This document shows positions 6,576 to 42,923 of a stretch of 64,000 nucleotides of DNA, in pieces. The notes under the pieces are model-generated. The model had not been told where the DNA came from and searched no databases. It saw only the letters and a list, made by a program, of their open reading frames with translations. Both the position numbers and the translations under genes were made by a program. Source of the stretch: Cognaticolwellia mytili. Lineage in GTDB: Bacteria > Pseudomonadota > Gammaproteobacteria > Enterobacterales > Alteromonadaceae. Position 1 is the stretch's first letter. Every line of letters begins with the position of its first letter. The stretch lies in contig NZ_NBOF01000003.1 of the NCBI RefSeq assembly GCF_002104475.1, positions 434,001 to 498,000 on the forward strand. The letters run 5' to 3'.

Positions 6576-8813
6576 GTGGCCATTGCTTCCAAGTCAGGAA
6601 ATTATCGTAAGGTTAAAAACTCATTAGCGAAATGGGTGATTACACTGGGCGGTATTAGTGTTCTATTTACTTTGGTTTTGATTTTCATGTACTTACTGTA
6701 TGTGATTAAACCTATATTTGAGTCTGCAAAAGTTGAAGCTCACGCTCAGTTTGCTATTACTGAACCACAAAAGGTTTTATCAACCGGTGTTGATGAGCTA
6801 CAAGAGGTTGCGTATAGTATTACGCAGCAAGGAACTATTAACTTTTATCAATTAGTTGATAGTTCACGCTATAAAGCAGGAGCTAAAATTCACTCACAGC
6901 AGCTTGTCGCTGATGGCGAAAAACTAGTTCAGCTGGTGAATGTTGGCCAAGAGCAAAAGTTACTGCTTGATAGTGCAGGTAATGTGCAACTAATTGCGCC
7001 GAATTTCACCTCAAATTTCGACAGTGGTGAAAGGGTCATTATTCCAAGTGTTCGTTATCCACTGGGTGAAGCATTTCTGCCTGTTGAAGAAAATAATGTC
7101 GCATTGAAAAAACTATCTTTTGCCATGGACGACGAAAAGGCTATTTTTGTTGGTTTTACGCAAGATAATCGACTGATTAAAACTAGCTTTATCGCCGAAG
7201 ATGACTTTAGTTACGACACTGAATTTGAAGCCGAATATGAAGAAATTGATTATTCAGCCAAGTACGTTGATGATATTTTAGTGACGCCAGATTTAGCCAT
7301 GGTATTTATTCGCGAAGCTGATCAAGTTGCTGTGTACTCACTCGATGAAGAAAGTGAATTAAAAGCGACTATCATTCCGCAATTAGCACAAAACAAATCA
7401 TCGCCTAATCATATTACCTCAATGGCATTACTTTCGGGTGGTAGCTCAATTCTACTAGGTGATGATAATGGTCAAGTGAGCCAATGGTTTGAAGTTGCTA
7501 GCAAAGAAGGGCGTGAATTTAAAAATATTCGTCAATTTAAGGTAAGCGACAAAGAGCCAATAACGGCAATTTATACCGAACAATTTCGTAAAAGCTTTTA
7601 TACTGAAACACCTTCTGGTGAAATGGGCATGTTCTATACCACCAGTGAAGCTGATTTATGGCGTGGTCAATTGCATCAGGGCAATGCACGAGCGTTTGCG
7701 ATTGCCCCTCGCGCTGATGGCTTAGTGATATTTTCAGAACAAGAATTATCAATTTTCAGCGTGGAAAATGAGCACCCTGAAGTGACATGGCAAGCGCTGT
7801 GGCAAGAAGTTTGGTATGAAGGTTACCCTGAGCCTGAGTTTATTTGGCAGTCAACGTCAGGCTCAGATGATTTTGAAGCAAAATTTTCTTTAGTGCCTAT
7901 TTCGTTTGGTACGATAAAAGCGGCAATGTACGCCATGATGTTTGCTGTACCTATTGCACTAACGGCGGCAATTTATACCGCTTACTTTATGACCCCAGGT
8001 TTACGCAGAAAAGTAAAACCGACCATTGAATTAATGGAAGCGCTGCCTACGGTTATTCTTGGTTTCTTGGCGGGGCTTTGGTTAGCGCCAATTATTGAAA
8101 TATATTTGCCAGCGATTTTCTTGCTACTTATTTTTATACCGACATCGGTATTTATCACCGCGTTTGCTTGGCACAAACTTCCTAGAGCTTATAAAACTTT
8201 AATACCTGAAACTTGGGCGCCTATTATTTTAATCCCCGCAATACTACTAGCCGGAATTTCTGCTTTTGCACTATCACCTGTACTTGAATTGTATGCTTTT
8301 GGCGGTGATATAAGACAATTTATCACCAATGATTTAGATATCAGCTTTGACCAACGTAATGCTTTAGTTGTTGGTATTGCGATGGGCTTTGCTGTTATAC
8401 CAACCATTTTCTCAATGGCTGAAGATGCTATTTTCAGTGTGCCGAAACATTTAACTAGTGGCTCACTCGCCTTAGGTGCTACGCAGTGGCAAACCTTAGT
8501 TAAAGTTGTATTACTTACCGCAAGTCCTGGCATATTCTCTGCCGTGATGATGGGGCTAGGGCGTGCAGTAGGAGAAACCATGATTGTATTAATGGCGACA
8601 GGTAACACGCCTATTCTTGACTGGAGTATTTTCCAAGGTATGAGAACACTCGCAGCCAATATTGCCGTTGAAATGCCAGAGTCGGAAGTGGGAAGTTCTC
8701 ATTACCGTATTTTATTCCTAGCGGCATTCGTTTTGTTTGTATTCACTTTTGTATTTAACACGCTTGCTGAGTTTATTCGTCAGCGCTTGCGTGAAAAATA
8801 CAGCTCGTTGTAA
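6576..8813 (+). CDS. pstC: Phosphate ABC transporter permease PstC, long form
   Basis: 745 residues, more than twice the ~320 of E. coli PstC. One transmembrane helix at about 18-42 is followed by a ~390-residue non-membrane domain. The permease core lies at about 445-740, with SFGTIKAAMYAMMFAVPIAL, MEALPTVILGFLAGLW and the coupling loop GSLALGATQWQTLVKVV. The long domain is rich in short beta-type repeats (LLSGGSSILLGDDNGQV) that could form a propeller on the periplasmic side; this is inference. Translation starts at GTG with GAAGG 9 bp upstream. It is first in the pst operon behind a Pho box. With PstA it forms the inner-membrane channel for phosphate. Similar long PstC forms are known in marine gammaproteobacteria. 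Confidence 0.92.
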   Translation: MAIASKSGNYRKVKNSLAKWVITLGGISVLFTLVLIFMYLLYVIKPIFESAKVEAHAQFAITEPQKVLSTGVDELQEVAYSITQQGTINFYQLVDSSRYKAGAKIHSQQLVADGEKLVQLVNVGQEQKLLLDSAGNVQLIAPNFTSNFDSGERVIIPSVRYPLGEAFLPVEENNVALKKLSFAMDDEKAIFVGFTQDNRLIKTSFIAEDDFSYDTEFEAEYEEIDYSAKYVDDILVTPDLAMVFIREADQVAVYSLDEESELKATIIPQLAQNKSSPNHITSMALLSGGSSILLGDDNGQVSQWFEVASKEGREFKNIRQFKVSDKEPITAIYTEQFRKSFYTETPSGEMGMFYTTSEADLWRGQLHQGNARAFAIAPRADGLVIFSEQELSIFSVENEHPEVTWQALWQEVWYEGYPEPEFIWQSTSGSDDFEAKFSLVPISFGTIKAAMYAMMFAVPIALTAAIYTAYFMTPGLRRKVKPTIELMEALPTVILGFLAGLWLAPIIEIYLPAIFLLLIFIPTSVFITAFAWHKLPRAYKTLIPETWAPIILIPAILLAGISAFALSPVLELYAFGGDIRQFITNDLDISFDQRNALVVGIAMGFAVIPTIFSMAEDAIFSVPKHLTSGSLALGATQWQTLVKVVLLTASPGIFSAVMMGLGRAVGETMIVLMATGNTPILDWSIFQGMRTLAANIAVEMPESEVGSSHYRILFLAAFVLFVFTFVFNTLAEFIRQRLREKYSSL

Positions 8814-8827
8814 GAAGGGACAGTAAC

Positions 8828-10465
8828 ATGAATAATTGGTTTAAATCTGGCTCTCCTTGGGTTTGGTTGTCAGCAGGCGGTGTAAGCATTAGTTTGATTT
8901 CGGTCATTGGCTTACTGTGGTTAATTGCATCTCGTGGCTTAAGTTATTTTTGGCCTGCCGATATTTATCAGTTTGAAATGACTGATGAGCAGGGGATAAA
9001 CACTACAGTCATCGGTGAAATTTATGATCGTGAAAATATTCCAACGTCACAGCTAGTGCATTTAAATCTTGATTTAGATACCTCAGTTGAATCCATTGAA
9101 CGTCTGCTAATTAAAACCGGTAACCGTGAATTAGTGAGTTTAGACTTTCGCTGGATACTGGTACCACAAATTAGCCAGCAATCATTACCTGAAGACTTAG
9201 TGTTGATAGAACGCCGTACCAATGGCAATTTCTATGGTTATATAGAAAACATTATTCTTGATGGCAGAACTGTTGGATTAGAGAAAATGCCAGAACTGGT
9301 TGAGCGTGTTAGTGAATTCCAAGCAGAAATGGAAGAGCTACAAAAAGTTGATATAGGGGCAATTAACTATCAAATTGAGCGCACACGTTTAAAAGAGCGC
9401 AAACATAAGCTTGATGAAACCTTGACTCCTGAACTGCAGCTTGAGTTTAAAAATACCGTGGCAAGTTTACGTGCTGACTATGAAGTGCTTGAGCACGCGC
9501 TAATGGGCTTGCGAGAAAAAATTTCTCGTGACCAAATAGTGATGCGTGCGATGGACGGCCAGAAAGTTACTATTAATTTTGAAAACATACTTAAAATCAA
9601 CTTTAACAATCAGTTGACTTTGTTTGGCAAGATTAAACTTTTCTTTAGTCAAATAGGCTCATTTATTAGTGATGATCCTCGCGAAGCCAATACTGAAGGT
9701 GGTGTTTTTCCAGCAATTTTTGGTACCGTGTTGATGGTATTGTTAATGACAGTAATTGTTTCGCCATTAGGCGTAGTTGCAGCAATTTACTTACATGAAT
9801 ATGCTGGAAATAATGCCTTAACTAAATTGTTACGTATTGCGGTAATTAACCTTGCTGGCGTACCTTCTATTGTTTATGGCGTATTTGGCTTAGGCTTCTT
9901 TGTTTACATGGTAGGTGGCAGTTTAGACCAATTGTTTTATGCCGAAACACTACCAAGCCCAACCTTTGGCACGCCAGGGGTAATGTGGTCGGCTATTACA
10001 CTAGCTATTTTGACTTTACCTGTAGTTATCGTTTCAACCGAAGAAGGTTTGTCACGTATTCCTTCAGCGATGAGACACGGTAGCTTGGCGCTAGGTGCGA
10101 CGAAAGCTGAAACCTTATGGCGTATTATATTACCTATCGCAAGTCCTGCGATTATGACCGGTATTATTTTAGCAATAGCGCGTGCTGCCGGTGAAGTAGC
10201 GCCACTAATGTTAGTCGGTGTTGTGAAGATGGCGCCAAACTTACCACTTGATGGCAACTTTCCGTTCTTACATTTAGATCGTAAGTTTATGCATTTAGGC
10301 TTTCATATTTATGATGTTGGCTTTCAAAGCCCGAATGTTGAAGCGGCAAGACCACTTGTTTACGCTACGGCATTATTGCTAGTGAGCATTATAGTCGCGT
10401 TGAATATGACGGCAGTGTCGATTCGTAACCGCTTACGTGAAAAGTATCGCATGCTAGAGCACTAG
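8828..10465 (+). CDS. pstA: Phosphate ABC transporter permease PstA, long form
   Basis: 545 residues against ~295 in E. coli. Transmembrane helix 1 is at about 12-35. A ~250-residue insert follows, with a heavily charged, probably coiled-coil stretch at about 155-245 (QAEMEELQKVDIG ... ERKHKLDETL). The permease core starts near 295 (GVFPAIFGTVLMVLLMTVIV), with NLAGVPSIVYGVFGLGFFVY and the coupling loop HGSLALGATKAETLWRII. GAAGGGA lies before the ATG, 14 bp after pstC. It partners PstC as the second channel subunit. The coil probably lies in the periplasm, like the PstC extension, and the two extended domains may have co-evolved. Confidence 0.92.
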   Translation: MNNWFKSGSPWVWLSAGGVSISLISVIGLLWLIASRGLSYFWPADIYQFEMTDEQGINTTVIGEIYDRENIPTSQLVHLNLDLDTSVESIERLLIKTGNRELVSLDFRWILVPQISQQSLPEDLVLIERRTNGNFYGYIENIILDGRTVGLEKMPELVERVSEFQAEMEELQKVDIGAINYQIERTRLKERKHKLDETLTPELQLEFKNTVASLRADYEVLEHALMGLREKISRDQIVMRAMDGQKVTINFENILKINFNNQLTLFGKIKLFFSQIGSFISDDPREANTEGGVFPAIFGTVLMVLLMTVIVSPLGVVAAIYLHEYAGNNALTKLLRIAVINLAGVPSIVYGVFGLGFFVYMVGGSLDQLFYAETLPSPTFGTPGVMWSAITLAILTLPVVIVSTEEGLSRIPSAMRHGSLALGATKAETLWRIILPIASPAIMTGIILAIARAAGEVAPLMLVGVVKMAPNLPLDGNFPFLHLDRKFMHLGFHIYDVGFQSPNVEAARPLVYATALLLVSIIVALNMTAVSIRNRLREKYRMLEH

Positions 10466-10602
10466 TTGTATTTGCCCAACTAGCATAACGCTTAAGAAAA
10501 CTCGTAAAGTGCTTAATTTATTTTTAGCAAATGATTAAGTGCAATGAACAAGATTAACGGCATTATAAGCCCAATGACAAAGTTAGATTTAAAGAGAACA
10601 CT

Positions 10603-11427
10603 ATGATTTCTGTTACGCCAAAAAATTTATCAGAGCACAATGTTAAACTCGATCTTAACAACCTTTCGCCAGAGCAAGTGGCGCTCGAGATTAGGAACCT
10701 AGATTTATATTATGGTAACAAGCAGGCCTTGCAAAACATTTCAATGTCGATCCCAAAAGGGCAAGTAACGGCGTTTATTGGCCCAAGTGGTTGCGGTAAA
10801 TCAACATTGCTGCGTTGTATTAACCGGATGAACGATTTGGTTGATACTTGTAAAATTGAGGGTCAAATTAACCTTCATGGCGAAAATATTTACGACCGTC
10901 ACACTGATGTTGCGGCATTACGTCGTAAGGTTGGTATGGTGTTTCAGCGTCCGAACCCATTTCCTAAATCAATATATGAAAATGTGGTTTATGGCTTACG
11001 TATTACTGGCGAAAACAATCGCCGCGTACTTGATGAAGCGGTAGAAAACGCTTTACGTAGTGCCGCACTTTGGAATGAAGTAAAAGATAGATTACATGAA
11101 AGTGCTTTAGGTTTATCTGGTGGTCAGCAGCAGCGTTTGGTTATTGCCCGTGCGATAGCCATAAAGCCGGAAGTATTGCTACTTGATGAACCAACATCAG
11201 CGCTTGATCCGATTTCAACATTGACTATTGAAGAGTTGATTAACGATTTAAAGAAACAATTTACCGTAGTGATTGTTACGCATAACATGCAGCAGGCTGC
11301 TCGTGTTTCTGATCAAACAGCATTTATGTATATGGGTGACTTAATTGAATATAGTGACACTAACACTTTATTTACTACACCGTTAAAAAAGAAAACTGAA
11401 GATTATATTACCGGCCGTTATGGTTAA
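10603..11427 (+). CDS. pstB: Phosphate ABC transporter ATP-binding protein PstB
   Basis: 274 residues. Walker A is [13 protein letters not shown], the Q-loop region reads [19 protein letters not shown] (the PstB-specific RPNPFP), the signature is [14 protein letters not shown], Walker B is [12 protein letters not shown], and the switch His is in IVTHNMQQA. An N-terminal extension of about 25 residues precedes the usual PstB start. It follows pstA after 137 bp, a longer gap than elsewhere in the operon, with no obvious terminator in it. It energises PstCA. No PstS binding protein gene accompanies the operon, so the receptor must be encoded elsewhere. Confidence 0.95.
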
Positions 11428-11464
11428 TTGACCATAACACTGAAGATAGACAGAGGATTTTACC

Positions 11465-12172
11465 GTGGATAATTTAAATATTGGTCGTCATATTTCTGGC
11501 CAATTTAATGAAGACTTAGAGCGTATTATTAATCATGTTATGCACATGGGGGGATTGGTGGAGAAACAGTTAGCAGATGCATTAACATCAGTTTGCGATG
11601 CTGATGAAGAGCTCGCTAAAAAAGTGCTAGAAAATGATTATCAAATTAACAATGCAGAAGTCAGCATAGATGATGAATGCACACGTATTATTGCTAAACG
11701 ACAACCTGCAGCTGGTGATTTACGTTTAGTGATGGCCATTGTTAAAACTATTACAGACTTAGAGCGTATTGGCGATGAAGCAGGGAAAATAGCGAATGTT
11801 ACGTTAGAAAGCTTGTCGGGTAAGCATAAAGATTTATTGTCAAATTTAGATAATTTAGGTCGCCATGTCTTAACGTTTTTACAATCGACATTAGATGCTT
11901 TTACTCGCATGGATTATGATGCTGCAGTAAAAGTACACAAAAGTGATGATAAAATAGACCGCGAATATGAGGCATTAATGCGCCAGCTAATGACCTATAT
12001 GATGGAAGATCCGCGCTCAATTCCGCAAGTGATGAGTGTGATTTGGTCGGCACGAGCGTTAGAGCGTATTGGTGACCGTTGTCAAAATATCTGTGAGTAT
12101 ATTATTTACTTTGTTAAAGGTAGAGATGTGCGTCATACCACAGCTGAAGATTTTCAGTCACTCTCTAAATAG
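11465..12172 (+). CDS. phoU: Phosphate signalling regulator PhoU
   Basis: 235 residues in two PhoU helical repeats. MGGLVEKQLADAL in the first and FTRMDYDAAVKVHKSDDKID in the second are the E/DxxxD metal-cluster-type segments, with IGDEAGKIA and IGDRCQNICEYI as the paired family signatures. Translation starts at GTG with AGAGGA upstream, 37 bp after pstB. PhoU links the Pst transporter to the PhoR kinase and shuts off the Pho regulon when phosphate is plentiful. PhoB and PhoR themselves are not in this window. Confidence 0.95.
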   Translation: MDNLNIGRHISGQFNEDLERIINHVMHMGGLVEKQLADALTSVCDADEELAKKVLENDYQINNAEVSIDDECTRIIAKRQPAAGDLRLVMAIVKTITDLERIGDEAGKIANVTLESLSGKHKDLLSNLDNLGRHVLTFLQSTLDAFTRMDYDAAVKVHKSDDKIDREYEALMRQLMTYMMEDPRSIPQVMSVIWSARALERIGDRCQNICEYIIYFVKGRDVRHTTAEDFQSLSK

Positions 12173-12290
12173 CAAAGAGACACAATAATTTCAATAATGA
12201 AATATGAGTTCCTGAATTATAAATAGTGGTTATACTTTAAAGCGAACTCTTAATAGCTAATCATTCTATAAACAGCCTGTATCTTGATAT

Positions 12291-12320
12291 AAACCATTTG
12301 AATTAACTTTCAAATGGTTT
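12291..12320 (+). other. Hairpin between phoU and the DUF47 gene
   Basis: AAACCATTTGA (12291-12301) pairs with TCAAATGGTTT (12310-12320), an 11-bp perfect stem with an 8-nt loop, partly extended by GATAT/ATATC. It lacks a good T run. It could be a weak terminator ending the pst operon or an RNA-processing structure. Confidence 0.5.
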
Positions 12321-12371
12321 AATATCCGCGGCGAATAACAATAAAGAGCTTATAGCTCCTGGAAACTAATT

Positions 12372-13052
12372 ATGGCCAGAAATTCAATACTCGGTGTATT
12401 TGCAAAATCACCAATAAAGCCAATAGAAAAACATATTCGATTGGTAACAAAGTGTTGTAATCAACTAGTCCCTTTCTTCGCAGCAATAACTGAGGAAGAC
12501 TGGAGTACCGCAGGAAAAATTCGTACGAAAATATCTAAATTAGAACGTGATGCTGATGATTTAAAGCGTCAAATTCGTTTAGAGCTACCGGGCGGTTTAT
12601 TTATGCCGGTCGATCGTGCTGATTTATTGGAGTTACTAACGCAACAAGACAAAATTGCTAACCGTGCAAAAGATATTGCCGGGCGTATTTTTGGCCGAAA
12701 GTTGACGTTACCAAAGCCGTTACAAGAGCAATTTATCGCTTATGTTGCGCGTAGTGTTGATGCTGCTGAAAAGGCTGCCGATGCTATTAATGAATTGGAT
12801 GACTTATTAGAAACAGGATTTCGTGGTCGTGAAGTTGAATTGGTTAATAAAATGATCAGTCAATTAGATCAAATCGAAGATGATACTGACGGCATGCAAA
12901 TAGCATTACGTAAAGACTTGCTAACAATTGAGAAAGAATTAAATTGTGTCGACGTAATGTTTTTATATCAGATCATTGACTGGGTTGGTGACTTAGCCGA
13001 CCTTGCCGAGCGTGTTGGTGCACGTTTAGAAATACTTTTGGCTAGAAAATAA
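12372..13052 (+). CDS. DUF47/TIGR00153 PhoU-like protein, partner of the phosphate carrier
   Basis: 226 residues, all helical in character and with no membrane segment. Features are KSPIKPIEKHIRLV at the start, LERDADDLKRQIRLELPGGLFMPVDRADLL in the middle (a family hallmark) and DWVGDLADLAERVGARLEILLARK at the end. These mark the TIGR00153/DUF47 family, distantly related to PhoU and almost always encoded beside PiT-family carriers. Here the PiT gene starts 9 bp downstream, so the two are co-translated. It probably regulates the carrier; the mechanism is not established. GGA lies 8 bp before the ATG. Confidence 0.88.
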   Translation: MARNSILGVFAKSPIKPIEKHIRLVTKCCNQLVPFFAAITEEDWSTAGKIRTKISKLERDADDLKRQIRLELPGGLFMPVDRADLLELLTQQDKIANRAKDIAGRIFGRKLTLPKPLQEQFIAYVARSVDAAEKAADAINELDDLLETGFRGREVELVNKMISQLDQIEDDTDGMQIALRKDLLTIEKELNCVDVMFLYQIIDWVGDLADLAERVGARLEILLARK

Positions 13053-13061
13053 GGCTCGTTC

Positions 13062-14327
13062 ATGGATATTATACTCGCAAATGGCTCAACGTTAGTCATG
13101 ATTGCTGCTGCCGTAGGCTTTTTTATGGCATGGGGCATTGGCGCTAACGATGTTGCTAATGCAATGGGAACATCGGTTGGCTCGAAAGCGTTAACAATTA
13201 AACAAGCGATTATTATCGCTATGGTGTTTGAATTTGCCGGTGCATATTTAGCCGGTGGTGAAGTAACGTCAACTATACGTAAAGGTATCATTGACCCTGC
13301 GCTTTTCGTCGACATTCCAGAACTATTGGTTTACGGCATGATCTCAGCATTATTAGCCGCAGCTACATGGTTATTAGTTGCATCCGTTCTTGGTTGGCCT
13401 GTATCGACTACCCACTCGATAGTTGGTGCTATTATCGGCTTTGCTGCTATTGGTGTTAGCCCTGATACTGTTGCTTGGGGTAAAGTCGGCGGTATTGTTG
13501 GCAGTTGGATTATTACGCCACTTATTTCAGGTGTTATAGCTTTCTTAATCTTTAATAGTGCACAAAAGCTTATTTTTGATACAGATAAACCATTAGTTCA
13601 AGCACGCCGTTGGGTACCACTTTATATGTTTTTTGCTGGTTTTGTATTGTCACTAGTGACCATCAAAAAAGGCTTGAAGCATTTAGGCTTAGATATTGAT
13701 TCAACAGACGGCTTTATTTATGCTGCTATTGTTGCCGCTATTGTCGCAATGATAGGTAAATACTTTATCAGTCGTTTGAAGTTTGATGAGTCAGCGGAAA
13801 AAACGACGCATTACGCGAATGTTGAAAAAGTATTTGCTATTTTGATGATAGTAACTGCATGTTGTATGGCATTTGCTCACGGTTCAAATGATGTTGCCAA
13901 TGCGATTGGTCCTTTAGCAGCAGTGGTAAGTATCGTTGATAACGGCGGTGAAATAGCGAAAAAATCAGCGCTAGTTTGGTGGATCCTTCCTTTAGGTGGT
14001 TTCGGTATTGTTGCGGGTCTTGCATTATTTGGCCATAAAGTTATTGCGACTATTGGTCAAGGCATAACACACTTAACGCCGAGTCGTGGTTTTGCTGCGG
14101 AATTGGCTGCTGCTTGTACTGTGGTTATCGCTTCTGGTGCTGGCTTACCTATATCAACAACACAAACCTTAGTCGGTGCAGTGTTAGGCGTAGGTATGGC
14201 TCGAGGTATTGCTGCTATTAACTTAGGTGTGGTACGTAATATTGTTGTATCTTGGGTAATTACATTACCTGTGGGGGCCGGCCTTTCAATTGTCTTCTTC
14301 TGGATAATGAAAGCGACATTTAGTTAG
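13062..14327 (+). CDS. PiT-family inorganic phosphate (or sulfate) carrier
   Basis: 421 residues with about 10-11 membrane helices. The family's duplicated signature is seen twice: GANDVANAMGTSVGS near residue 28 and GSNDVANAIGPLAAV near residue 273, with PVSTTHSIVGAIIG and PISTTQTLVGAVLG as the second matching pair. The middle loop is short, unlike E. coli PitA. PiT proteins are secondary carriers using H+ or Na+. In a seawater organism Na+ coupling is plausible but not shown. It is co-transcribed with the DUF47 gene. Together with the Pst genes it gives a high-affinity plus low-affinity phosphate uptake locus. A strong terminator follows. Confidence 0.9.
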   Translation: MDIILANGSTLVMIAAAVGFFMAWGIGANDVANAMGTSVGSKALTIKQAIIIAMVFEFAGAYLAGGEVTSTIRKGIIDPALFVDIPELLVYGMISALLAAATWLLVASVLGWPVSTTHSIVGAIIGFAAIGVSPDTVAWGKVGGIVGSWIITPLISGVIAFLIFNSAQKLIFDTDKPLVQARRWVPLYMFFAGFVLSLVTIKKGLKHLGLDIDSTDGFIYAAIVAAIVAMIGKYFISRLKFDESAEKTTHYANVEKVFAILMIVTACCMAFAHGSNDVANAIGPLAAVVSIVDNGGEIAKKSALVWWILPLGGFGIVAGLALFGHKVIATIGQGITHLTPSRGFAAELAAACTVVIASGAGLPISTTQTLVGAVLGVGMARGIAAINLGVVRNIVVSWVITLPVGAGLSIVFFWIMKATFS

Positions 14328-14353
14328 CGAACTGATTATAAAATCATCGAGTT

Positions 14354-14380
14354 AAAGCCAGCCAAGTTGCTGGCTTTTTT
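14354..14380 (+). terminator. Terminator after the phosphate carrier gene
   Basis: AAAGCCAGC (14354-14362) pairs with GCTGGCTTT (14369-14377) around a 6-nt loop, followed by T's to 14380. Confidence 0.92.
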
Positions 14381-14429
14381 ATGGCTTATAGCTGATTAAA
14401 ATATTAATTAAAAAAACTCGTAAAATGGC

Positions 14430-14458
14430 TTGCGGGCTTAGTTAAATCACTATATTAT
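14430..14458 (+). promoter_or_regulatory. Promoter of tRNA-Phe
   Basis: -35 TTGCGG (14430-14435), a 17-bp spacer and -10 TATTAT (14453-14458), then a GC-rich discriminator (GTCGCC). The latter is typical of stringently controlled stable-RNA promoters. Confidence 0.7.
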
Positions 14459-14516
14459 GTCGCCTCTTTCGAGACAAAAGCTTAACTATCTAAGCTGTTT
14501 GTTAATTAAGATTAGT

Positions 14517-14592
14517 GCCTTGATAGCTCAGTCGGTAGAGCAGAGGATTGAAAATCCTCGTGTCCCTGGTTCGATTCCGGGTCAAGGCACCA
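14517..14592 (+). tRNA. tRNA-Phe (GAA)
   Basis: 76 nt with encoded CCA. The acceptor GCCTTGA pairs with TCAAGGC and the anticodon loop is TTGAAAA (anticodon GAA). The D arm TAGCTCAGTCGGTAGAGC and T arm CCTGGTTCGATTCCGGG are canonical. It is a single gene with its own promoter. No terminator is seen directly after it; a 9-bp satellite begins 12 nt past the CCA. Confidence 0.98.
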
Positions 14593-14604
14593 TATTTTTA
14601 AGAA

Positions 14605-14836
14605 GTCATCTAAAGCTATCTAAAGCCATCTAAGCCATCTAAGCCATCTAAGCCATCTAAGCTATCTAAGCCATCTAAGCCATCTAAGCCATCTAAGCTA
14701 TCTAAGCCATCTAAGCCATCTAAGCCATCTAAGCCATCTAAGCCATCTAAGCCATCTAAAGTCATCTAAGCTATCTAAAGTCATCTAAGCTATCTAAAGT
14801 CATCTAAGCTATCTAAAGTCATCTAAGCTATCTAAA
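14605..14836 (+). repeat. 25-copy 9-bp satellite (consensus GCCATCTAA) behind tRNA-Phe
   Basis: 232 bp made wholly of units of the form G(C/T)(C/T)ATCTAA, with an extra A in seven units. In order the first three bases are: GTC, GCT, four GCC, GCT, three GCC, GCT, six GCC, then four alternating GTC/GCT pairs. The last eight units form a 19-bp higher-order repeat four times over. Every 9-bp unit holds TAA in one frame, and the other two frames have no start, so it is not coding. A single related motif, CTATCTAAGCT, also lies before the tRNA near 14488. If the tRNA-Phe transcript is not ended early, the array is transcribed as its trailer. Confidence 0.95.
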
Positions 14837-15360
14837 GACCAGATTATTAATATAAAAGACTAATGTAACGAGCAACAATAGTTTATTAAAATAGTATTTT
14901 TAGTAACTCTGAGAAAATCAAATTGTTTTTTAAGTTGAGGCGATGCTAACTCACAACAGAAAGTGCTCATAATAGGGTTTAATCTGTGTATTTATGAACT
15001 TAGTGACAATAACAACATTATCACTATTAGCTAATAATAGGTGAGCATAAAGCTGACTACCTTCATTAAAAGGCAAGTAAAGTCGAGAGTTTTGGTATTA
15101 GTTAGATACCTGAGAATACTTTCTTGATAACTGTTTTTGCAATAATAAAAGAAATACATATGAGTTAGCAAAGGTCACAATTTGAAATATTTCTTACCTA
15201 ACCTGAGCGTGGAATAATAAGTAGGCTTTAATGGCACTAATGTAGACTGTACCTTTGTAATACACTGAAGTTGCAGTGTTTTTATTGTTGCTGTTTCAAT
15301 CTTAGGTTGCTTAGCTAAAGATCGAGAGCGAAGTACAAACTAAAATAAATAGCAAGTAAT
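14837..15360. other. Intergenic, no gene seen
   Basis: About 520 bp between the satellite and the terminator of the PEP-CTERM remnant. It is AT-rich with stops in all frames. I see no RNA gene or significant repeat. Confidence 0.6.
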
Positions 15361-15389
15361 AAAAAAGCACCGATAAATGGTGCTTTTTT
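15361..15389 (-). terminator. Terminator of the PEP-CTERM remnant (bidirectional shape)
   Basis: AAAAAAGCACC (15361-15371) pairs with GGTGCTTTTTT (15379-15389). T runs are present on both strands. It lies 35 bp past the stop of the minus-strand remnant. Confidence 0.85.
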
Positions 15390-15423
15390 ATTACTCGAAT
15401 GTAAGAGGATTAATCAGATTAGC

Positions 15424-15855
15424 TTATTGTCTTTTGGTCTTACGTGATGCTAGTCCTATAATAGCCAATGCGAATATAGCAAGTGTTGATGGCTCAGGTA
15501 CTTCGTTTGTTTTTATATACATAATGTTTTTTAAATTTGGGGTTCTGTTAGTCGTCTGTACTCCATCAGTTTAAACGCTTTCAGATGTATCACCTGAATT
15601 AGAGTTACCAACACCCCAGCTTGTATTATTTACCGGATTTCCTCCGTCACCATTTACAATAAGACCAGCGTCCCAGATACCGTCACCTTGACTAAATGAA
15701 GTCCCTGATGTTGTCCAATCAAAATTATTTTGATTACTGCTATCACTCCACCACCAAGTTCCATTAATTGTAGATTCAACACCATTATGATTAATTAACC
15801 ATTTAACTGCAGAGCCAGTTGTAGCAGACTCTGTGAATCTGTCCTTAATAAACTC
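15424..15855 (-). pseudogene. Decayed PEP-CTERM-anchored secreted protein gene
   Basis: On the minus strand the end of this frame reads VPEPSTLAIFALAIIGLASR then KTKRQ and a stop. This is a textbook PEP-CTERM sorting signal: VPEP, hydrophobic helix, basic tail. Reading upstream in the same frame there is one internal TAA at 15571-15573. The frame is then open back to about 15855 through a Gly/Asn/Ser/Trp-rich extracellular-type sequence (NGTWWWSDSSNQ, SQGDGIWDAGLIVNGDGG). That upstream part has no start codon and no signal peptide. A candidate start, ATG AAA AAT AAG at 15866, is in another frame. The gene has therefore lost its N-terminus by deletion or frameshift and gained a stop before its anchor. 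No exosortase gene is in this window. Confidence 0.85.
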
Positions 15856-15866
15856 TTATTTTTCAT

Positions 15867-16195
15867 GTGTTATAAAACTTCGCTAGTGCTTAAATTTAAT
15901 GGTGTAAAGTAATCCGACATTCAAGCTTTTGTTTTTTAGATGGTTTATTGTTTGTTGAAAGTAACATTATATTGAGAAAGATTGGTAGTTAAGCCTGCTC
16001 ATCGTATTAGAAAAAATTACAAAATATAAGCTTATTGTGATGTGTTGCGTCAGGCTTATAGCATGATGACAAGAAAGAAGCCCCCATAGATAAATACATG
16101 GCTGACTAATAAGAGGTAAAAATATACGAAGTCATTATTTATTGGTTAGTTATCCTCCTTTATCTATAGTTCAAGCTAGCTATTTATCAGTAAGT
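15867..16195. other. Intergenic, no gene seen
   Basis: About 330 bp upstream of the PEP-CTERM remnant and downstream of the Yip1-like gene. It may include the remnant's former promoter. No open frame or RNA gene is recognised. Confidence 0.55.
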
Positions 16196-16223
16196 ATAAA
16201 AATCCCGCTTAAAAGCGGGATTT
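16196..16223 (-). terminator. Terminator after the Yip1-like gene
   Basis: AAATCCCGCTT (16200-16210) pairs with AAGCGGGATTT (16213-16223), with A's at 16197-16202 giving a T run on the minus strand. It lies 38 bp past the stop at 16261. Confidence 0.88.
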
Positions 16224-16260
16224 CTTATTTGCTGTGGGCAATGATAATATAAATCTTTAT

Positions 16261-16860
16261 TTAGCTAACGTATTCAACCGCTAAACCTGAACTAAAGACA
16301 ACAGCACTTACTGCCATTAAAGCAACAATCAGTACTAAGCCGCAGGTTACTACAGAGCTTGAATAAATAAAGCCCTTTTCTTCTGGGATATTCATCATTA
16401 TCGGCACGCCAGAATATAACAAATAAACTGAATAACTCAGCGCTGCTAAACCAGCAAGTGCGACAAACCAAAGCACTGGAAATAATGTGGTTAGTCCAAC
16501 CATTAGCAATGGAGTTGCAGCATATGCAGCTAACTCTAATGACTGTGTGAAGTCAGGTTTTGAGTCAAATGTTTTCGCCATCCACTGAATTAGTGCAGCT
16601 AAAGCAAGTACTCCACAAATTAATCCTGCATACATTGCTATAGACATAAATATAGCGTTAGATTCTGTGAGTTTTATTGGATCACCAGCACCAATAGTCC
16701 AACCGATATGCGCTGCTGCGTAGTAGCCACAAATGGCAGGGATTAGTGAAATTGTTAGGATATGAACCATTGAATACATCAAACTTTCATGACGTTTCTC
16801 GATAGTTTGCCACTCTTTTTTAGGTGCAGTATAAAGCCCCCAAATATGATTTAAAATCAT
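16261..16860 (-). CDS. Yip1-family inner-membrane protein
   Basis: 199 residues with five hydrophobic segments at about 30-55, 70-95, 110-128, 128-150 and 168-195. It opens with MILNHIWGLYTAPKKEWQTI, the 'P..W' entry common to bacterial Yip1/DUF1282 proteins, and has the polar loop KTFDSKPDFTQSLELAAYAATP that typifies the family. It is a membrane protein of unknown role. It appears monocistronic with its own terminator. Confidence 0.75.
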   Translation of the reverse strand: MILNHIWGLYTAPKKEWQTIEKRHESLMYSMVHILTISLIPAICGYYAAAHIGWTIGAGDPIKLTESNAIFMSIAMYAGLICGVLALAALIQWMAKTFDSKPDFTQSLELAAYAATPLLMVGLTTLFPVLWFVALAGLAALSYSVYLLYSGVPIMMNIPEEKGFIYSSSVVTCGLVLIVALMAVSAVVFSSGLAVEYVS

Positions 16861-42507: not shown

Positions 42508-42584
42508 CGGTGATTAGCGCAGCTTGGTAGCGCACTTGGTTTGGGTCCAAGGGGTCGCAAGTTCGAATCTTGCATCACCGACCA
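42508..42584 (+). tRNA. tRNA-Pro (TGG), copy 1
   Basis: 77 nt with encoded CCA. The acceptor CGGTGAT pairs with ATCACCG, and the anticodon loop is TTTGGGT (anticodon TGG). It is first in the operon and identical in sequence to the copy at 42847. Confidence 0.97.
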
Positions 42585-42655
42585 CTTTTTTTTATTTTTT
42601 ATGGAAGAAAGTGTAAACTTTAATGTAAAGTTTATTTAGCATCTGTAGGCAATGT

Positions 42656-42732
<77 letters not shown>

Positions 42733-42738
42733 TACAAT

Positions 42739-42815
42739 GGTGGCTATAGCTCAGTTGGTAGAGCCCCGGATTGTGATTCCGGTTGTCGAGGGTTCAAGTC
42801 CCTTTAGCCACCCCA
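42739..42815 (+). tRNA. tRNA-His (GTG)
   Basis: 77 nt including the encoded extra G at -1 (42739) and CCA. The acceptor GTGGCTA pairs with TAGCCAC with discriminator C, as expected for tRNA-His. The anticodon loop is TTGTGAT. It is 6 nt after tRNA-Arg. Confidence 0.97.
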
Positions 42816-42846
42816 TTTTTTTGTATGTGTTTAGTAAAAAGTATAT

Positions 42847-42923
42847 CGGTGATTAGCGCAGCTTGGTAGCGCACTTGGTTTGGGTCCAAGGGGTCGCAAG
42901 TTCGAATCTTGCATCACCGACCA
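42847..42923 (+). tRNA. tRNA-Pro (TGG), copy 2
   Basis: 77 nt, identical base for base to copy 1 by eye. Flanks differ apart from a few bases (AT before, CTTT after), so the duplication covers little more than the gene. No strong terminator is seen behind it. Confidence 0.97.

Follow-up and report, generated by a model that had tools for sequence, protein, structure and literature searches.

The window considered here, a stretch of 64,000 nucleotides from the genome of Cognaticolwellia mytili, carries a tRNA-Phe gene that is followed on the same strand by a long array of 9-bp units. The gene, its upstream signals, and the array are laid out as follows.

14430-14458, + strand: putative tRNA-Phe promoter, TTGCGG-17-TATTAT, ending 58 nt upstream of the tRNA and recognized from conserved promoter-like hexamers
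14486-14496, + strand: lone CTATCTAAGCT in the tRNA leader, seen in the sequence
14517-14592, + strand: tRNA-Phe (GAA), located by ARAGORN and Rfam, with one further tRNA-Phe copy found elsewhere in the genome
14605-14836, + strand: array of 25 contiguous 9-bp units, G(C/T)(C/T)ATCTAA(A), from a unit-by-unit parse
14761-14836, + strand: four copies of a 19-bp unit pair (a GTC unit and a GCT+A unit), making up the last eight units of the array, from the same parse

The tRNA is identical in each of 17 genomes of the genus, and the second copy in the window's own genome is found at G000:C16:371006-371081. Promoter-like hexamers (TTGCG(G/A), 17 nt, TA(T/C)TAT) are kept at tRNA-Phe in all 17 of these genomes; a generic promoter scan did not list positions 14430-14458, where its first hexamer matched at only three of six positions. 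A lone repeat word ahead of the tRNA had been reported in a preliminary description of the locus, and it is indeed present in the leader; it is absent from the corresponding position in the relative G056, which is 93.6% identical to the window over 8312-14596. Elsewhere in the window, a tRNA cluster (Pro-Arg-His-Pro, 42508-42923) includes two tRNA-Pro(TGG) genes.

The array and its linkage to tRNA-Phe

The first unit of the array begins 12 nt after the CCA of tRNA-Phe. Described by their second and third bases, with +A marking an extra A, units 1-17 run in the order TC+A, CT+A, four CC, CT, three CC, CT, five CC, and CC+A, and the last eight units consist of TC followed by CT+A, four times over. 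Variation between units is confined to C/T at bases 2 and 3 and the optional extra A. Tandem Repeats Finder (TRF), run on the window, places a repeat of period 9 at 14603-14835 (25.2 copies, score 328), the next of its 10 rows scoring 61, and a two-unit pattern allowing up to two mismatches has 22 occurrences in the window, where shuffles predict 0.8; 18 of the 22 are exact and lie in the array. The number, sequence, and placement of the units given in the preliminary description are upheld by the parse, TRF, and ARAGORN, and the parse agrees equally with its account of the varying positions and of a 19-bp higher-order repeat present four times. The copy number is that of the assembly, which comprises 42 contigs. 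In the six frames through the middle of the array, stop-to-stop stretches measure 2 to 54 aa and are of low complexity; the array was rejected as coding sequence on these grounds and is noncoding as far as visible, as had been stated before. At gathering scores, Rfam recognizes no family in the region except tRNA.

Among 196 genomes of the family and 17 of the genus, an array behind tRNA-Phe was found in the window's own genome only. None of the 16 other genus genomes has it at this tRNA-Phe copy, and a three-word pattern detected none behind tRNA-Phe in the 195 other family genomes; in the window's genome, CATCTAAGCCATCTAAG is confined to the array (nine overlapping matches). The preliminary description had raised the prospect that the unit always stands behind tRNA-Phe, and the search of family genomes gave this link in the window's own genome alone. 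A conserved tRNA-linked repeat was rejected, the arrangement being present in one genome only among those searched, and there is thus no conservation that would argue for selection on the array.

An integrated element and its probable remnant behind tRNA-Phe

tRNA-Phe is followed by a strict intrinsic terminator in 14 of the 17 genus genomes, at a distance of 4-67 nt from the CCA to its start; the window, G143, and G202 have none within 400 nt of the gene. In G143, an element of approximately 7.1 kb (L078:4843-11993) is inserted at the 3' end of tRNA-Phe. It begins with a gene for a 412-aa tyrosine integrase that has catalytic, core-binding, and arm-binding domains (PF00589, PF13356), followed by further genes, a YagK/YfjJ-type gene (Pfam PF11726), and a second copy of the attachment core GGGTCAAGGCACCATAT, identical to that at the tRNA end; beyond this attR site come a terminator resembling that of the relatives and then trhO. 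The YagK/YfjJ protein of the element had no match at E 1e-5 among 50,697 phage records, and of five element proteins only the integrase matched PHROGs; the element was rejected as a known phage on these two results and is possibly a satellite. The window carries the following features on the same plan.

14579-14595, + strand: attachment core GGGTCAAGGCACCATAT (attL), the same core as at both ends of the G143 element
14837-14934, + strand: what is left of an integrated element's left arm, from alignment to the G143 left arm
14932-15209, + strand: ruined gene of the YagK/YfjJ C-terminal (replication-type) family, from matches to L078:8624-9199

The stretch 14827-14935 aligns to the G143 left arm with a score of 68, a value that none of 1000 letter shuffles reached, and identity rises to 81% over 14866-14907; with the G202 arm, the alignment of the same stretch scores no better than chance (reached by 119 of 1000 shuffles). 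The ruined YagK/YfjJ gene is 69-71% identical in DNA to its G143 counterpart, gives broken tblastn matches (best E 3e-6), and is interrupted by stops and frame breaks. The G143 integrase found no tblastn match in the window at E up to 1, and a search of the window's genome with up to one mismatch returned a single GGGTCAAGGCACCATAT core and no second one that could serve as attR. Since only one att core was found, the window holds a remnant and not an element. Counting the window's own, 4 of 295 family genomes contain DNA similar to this remnant.

The far side of the former element is not in its expected place. A hairpin of the G056 type, the native terminator, was not found in the window's genome, and trhO is next to a purF-like gene, so named by eye, on a separate contig (C12); an attR beside trhO was considered and rejected, no att-like scrap being present in the 4-kb locus (L096). 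The match between the window and G056 ends at 14596, and the 34 kb that follow it in G056 contain no further match to window positions 14597-40000. The next gene after tRNA-Phe in the window, Yip1 (16261-16860), is 1.7 kb behind the tRNA, and in relatives with the two genes on a single contig the corresponding distance is approximately 28 kb in G163, 34 kb in G203, 60 kb in G201, 121 kb in G143, and 143 kb in G056, the two genes being megabases apart in G007 and G198. Judged by these comparisons of gene order, 14592-16261 is a rearrangement border. With attR and the native terminator not found, trhO elsewhere, and the Yip1 distances altered, the loss of the terminator would not be reversible by excision. 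Between the tRNA and Yip1, positions 15417-15520 on the minus strand look by eye, from the motif, like the ruined end of a PEP-CTERM protein gene. In G202, the 60 nt that follow the CCA are, by eye, similar to the G143 arm, and the DNA before trhO (L080:3620-4476) contains a single gene longer than 100 aa (258 aa) and no hairpin terminator; it may be another element remnant behind tRNA-Phe.

Insertion of an element at the 3' end of tRNA-Phe, displacement of the terminator, and later decay in the window's lineage are strongly indicated by the sequence comparisons. A tyrosine-integrase element would have attached at the end of the gene and moved the intrinsic terminator to its own far side, and in the course of decay attR and the native terminator would have been lost. 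Slippage or unequal exchange would have enlarged a short segment at the beginning of the left end, 12 nt behind the CCA, to 25 units, with the last eight arising as four unit pairs. The array lies between the att core and the recognizable left arm, and the terminator in 14 of the 17 genomes, the intact element in G143, and the remnant in the window together indicate that it probably came from the left end of a dead element, an origin that we regard as very likely. The array itself most likely grew by slippage within the transcribed part of that end. The preliminary description had overlooked this setting: the tRNA trailer is most likely what decay has left of the left end of an element whose integration had moved the terminator away from the gene.

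The seed of the array is less easily assigned. The 34 nt from the CCA into the first units resemble the G143 and G202 arms at chance level (208 and 75 of 1000 shuffles as high, respectively). A less favored possibility is that the array grew from the native trailer of tRNA-Phe, in which ATCTAAAGCC stands just upstream of the terminator hairpin in G203, G119, and G199; the DNA immediately behind the array is, however, element arm, and for this reason a seed supplied by the element is preferred.

Termination of the tRNA-Phe transcript

Two further features, both from a terminator scan, bear on where transcription of tRNA-Phe may end.

15262-15279, + strand: first terminator-like site on this strand after the tRNA, weak (6 pairs, 3 G-C)
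15353-15397, listed on the minus strand: strong hairpin with A- and T-tracts

No + strand terminator-like site is listed between the CCA and 15262, in agreement with the preliminary description, which had seen no terminator between the tRNA and the array. Since the promoter-like hexamers are kept in all 17 genomes and no such site precedes 15262, the array is very probably contained in the primary transcript of tRNA-Phe, as had been predicted. The hairpin at 15353-15397 probably stops transcription in both directions; given the weak site and then this hairpin, the trailer would, without Rho, be approximately 670-800 nt long.

The reading that we prefer, with a probability of about 0.4, is that the array has taken over from the lost hairpin as an improvised Rho-dependent terminator. 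The tRNA-Phe transcript would run on into the array, Rho would load on the array RNA, transcription would end within or after the array, and ribonucleases would then trim the trailer back to the CCA. If the origin proposed above is granted, the odds on the Rho step are roughly even. The genome has a Rho gene that scores over the curated cut-off. In the part of the literature account available here, rut sites are characterized as C-rich, G-poor, and unstructured with YC repeats, and tRNA genes are included among those regulated by Rho-dependent termination (PMC9160355). Loading of Rho is proposed because the array RNA is C-rich, G-poor, and nearly unstructured, with YC spacing that suits the Rho hexamer. 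The array contains 63 C and 25 G in 234 nt, and the trailer from 14593 to 14860 folds at -14.4, compared with -33.3 +/- 3.9 for shuffles, all 200 of which fold at least as well. None of 426 sampled 234-nt windows is as unstructured as the array, and none has an equal C/G ratio. Ranked by area among 2667 C>G bubbles on both strands of the window, that of the array is fourth and the largest on the + strand; ranked by peak C-minus-G it is seventh, with four + strand bubbles above it. YC steps number 43, and 10 of them form a chain with intervals of 9-13 nt, which none of 637 other windows matched. Both sequence properties by which Rho-dependent terminators were judged, C-rich, G-poor, unstructured RNA of approximately 80 nt or more and YC steps at 9-13 nt spacing, are found in the array.

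Control arrays tell against this reading. When tandem arrays were built from random 9-mers of the window, 75 of 1000 equaled the array jointly in C-minus-G, YC count, and unstructuredness, and 18% had as little structure as a perfect array built from the unit. Another 13 places in the window satisfy the C/G and YC limits applied to the array, so that rut-like places are not rare. It also counts against the Rho reading that, in the same partial account, the strength of rut binding does not set the efficiency of termination in vivo (PMC9160355). A C>G bubble directly behind the CCA is large in G202, which has no hairpin, large in G196, where the hairpin is present, and small in G143, with its intact element and no strict intrinsic terminator; a lost hairpin and a C>G bubble are thus inconsistently associated. 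The more elaborate proposal that a young Rho-dependent terminator is in the making, in which the unit count would fix the share of transcription that escapes, making termination tunable by copy number, is rather improbable.

A close rival to termination by Rho, and itself quite possible, is that the array arose from the dead element in the same way and has no effect, transcription ending at a later hairpin; the trailer is discarded in tRNA maturation, and the products of slippage would therefore be tolerated. The main evidence for such a neutral satellite comes from relatives: in G200 (L048), an unrelated 15-bp repeat in four copies stands between the CCA and the intact terminator of tRNA-Phe, and in G196 (L049) a 50-bp minisatellite of 4.7 copies with 95% matches lies beyond the terminator. 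Repeats evidently grow here without a lost terminator, which favors a permissive, discarded trailer. Two short, weak arrays also lie beyond the tRNA-Phe hairpin in G007. The confinement of the array to one genome among those searched, the second tRNA-Phe copy, and the 75 equally rut-like random arrays are all in keeping with neutrality, but the array sits in one of only three tRNA-Phe copies that lack a hairpin, and its bubble heads the + strand of the window by area. Variation in copy number between cells could alternatively tune termination and with it tRNA-Phe output or read-through, as in a contingency locus. A long, near-uniform array with 19-bp pair amplification would be the kind of tract that changes length, yet the second tRNA-Phe copy tells against such a role, which appears quite unlikely; the comparison set includes one genome per species.

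Two remaining interpretations assign the array to binding of proteins. As amplified sites in attL, for example arm-type integrase or excisionase sites, the units would lie in the left end, where arm sites of an integrase are expected, and by eye they loosely resemble the reverse complement of TTTAGTAAC words in the G143 arm. The arms of G143 and G202 have no such array, however, the TTTAGTAAC word occurs once behind the array and is absent from its units, and 25 sites are far beyond what an arm needs, which makes this explanation decidedly unlikely. The preliminary description had viewed the repeated CUAAG words as a sponge for an RNase or protein or as a device for processing tRNA-Phe. Probable transcription of the array with the tRNA would be compatible with this, but no array was seen behind tRNA-Phe in any relative searched, Rfam at gathering scores finds only tRNA there, and no result spoke for a sponge or RNase-binding array; of the explanations considered, it is the least probable.

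Known systems and similar words elsewhere

The locus combines features that are individually familiar. Repeats are found right behind the tRNA gene of E. coli tyrT, where they are long (about 178 bp) and contain tRNA-like pieces, and the E. coli tyrosine tRNA gene reportedly has a Rho-dependent termination site, to go by the title of a 1978 study by Kupper and colleagues. The likeness lies in repeated DNA directly behind a tRNA gene and in termination by Rho, which is proposed here, whereas the unit in the window is 9 bp and unrelated to tRNA. The comparison with tyrT drawn in the preliminary description was thus apt, by way of a route that it had not stated. Bacterial minisatellites (VNTRs) share the short uniform tandem units, the higher-order pairs, and the presence in one genome, and the array differs from them in lying within what is probably the trailer of a tRNA. 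ICEKp1 and several other ICEs displace the tRNA terminator, and transcription from the tRNA promoter enters the element, according to the portion of the account available here (PMC13023037). On that description, elements of this type resemble the G143 and window arrangement in their insertion at the tRNA 3' end, the integrase reading away from the tRNA, the terminator at the far end, and entry of tRNA transcription (PMC13023037); in contrast, the element in the window is decayed, with integrase gene and attR not found and a 25-copy array behind the tRNA, and co-transcription is predicted. Among the open-access papers listed, judged by titles and abstract beginnings, none dealt with tandem repeats in Colwellia tRNA trailers or with Rho together with tandem repeats behind tRNA genes. 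Within that scope, the combination of a dead element, a tRNA without a hairpin, and a 25-unit trailer array is apparently undescribed.

That elements at tRNA 3' ends remove the tRNA terminator is already known (PMC13023037), and the present locus makes testable what becomes of a tRNA once such an element dies. The tRNA-Phe gene offers a comparison series for this, with a hairpin in most relatives, a live element in one, and a remnant with an array in another. An array that stops transcription would show how a simple repeat can give rise to a Rho-dependent terminator, and one without effect would be an ordinary satellite in a discarded trailer.

Similar words occur elsewhere in other settings. 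A less strict pattern, three ATCTAA words, matched 6 of 196 family genomes, that of the window counted, and the five other genomes have no tRNA at the loci concerned (one each, 3 kb). The loci of G097 and G150 are coding-like by eye, and in G088 (L014) approximately six copies of TTGCATTAGA separate, again by eye, a hairpin from the end of a groEL-like gene. The ATCTAAGYYATCTAAGYYATCTAA pattern gave 11 stretches in 84,980 species genomes, a set in which the window's own genome is perhaps not included. Eight of these are inside stop-to-stop open stretches of at least 160 aa, and three (L083 of Colwellia polaris, L090, and L091) have no open stretch longer than 59 aa; no tRNA was found around any of the 11 (6-8 kb each). 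A viral collection yielded four pattern matches, all in open stretches of at least 247 aa and none with a tRNA. The proposal in the preliminary description that the array forms a system with tRNA-Phe is not sustained, since a single genome among those searched has the array behind tRNA-Phe, and the small arrays of similar words found elsewhere are not accompanied by a tRNA in the stretches examined. The arrays of L083 and L091 resemble that of the window in having short units and no long open frame, and that of L014 in having short units behind a gene, by eye groEL-like; all three differ from it in their units, in having fewer copies of each, and in having no tRNA in the examined stretch. In L091, from Bavariicoccus seileri, a long field of AATCTAAAT-like and TCTAAGCTA units extends outside any long open frame.
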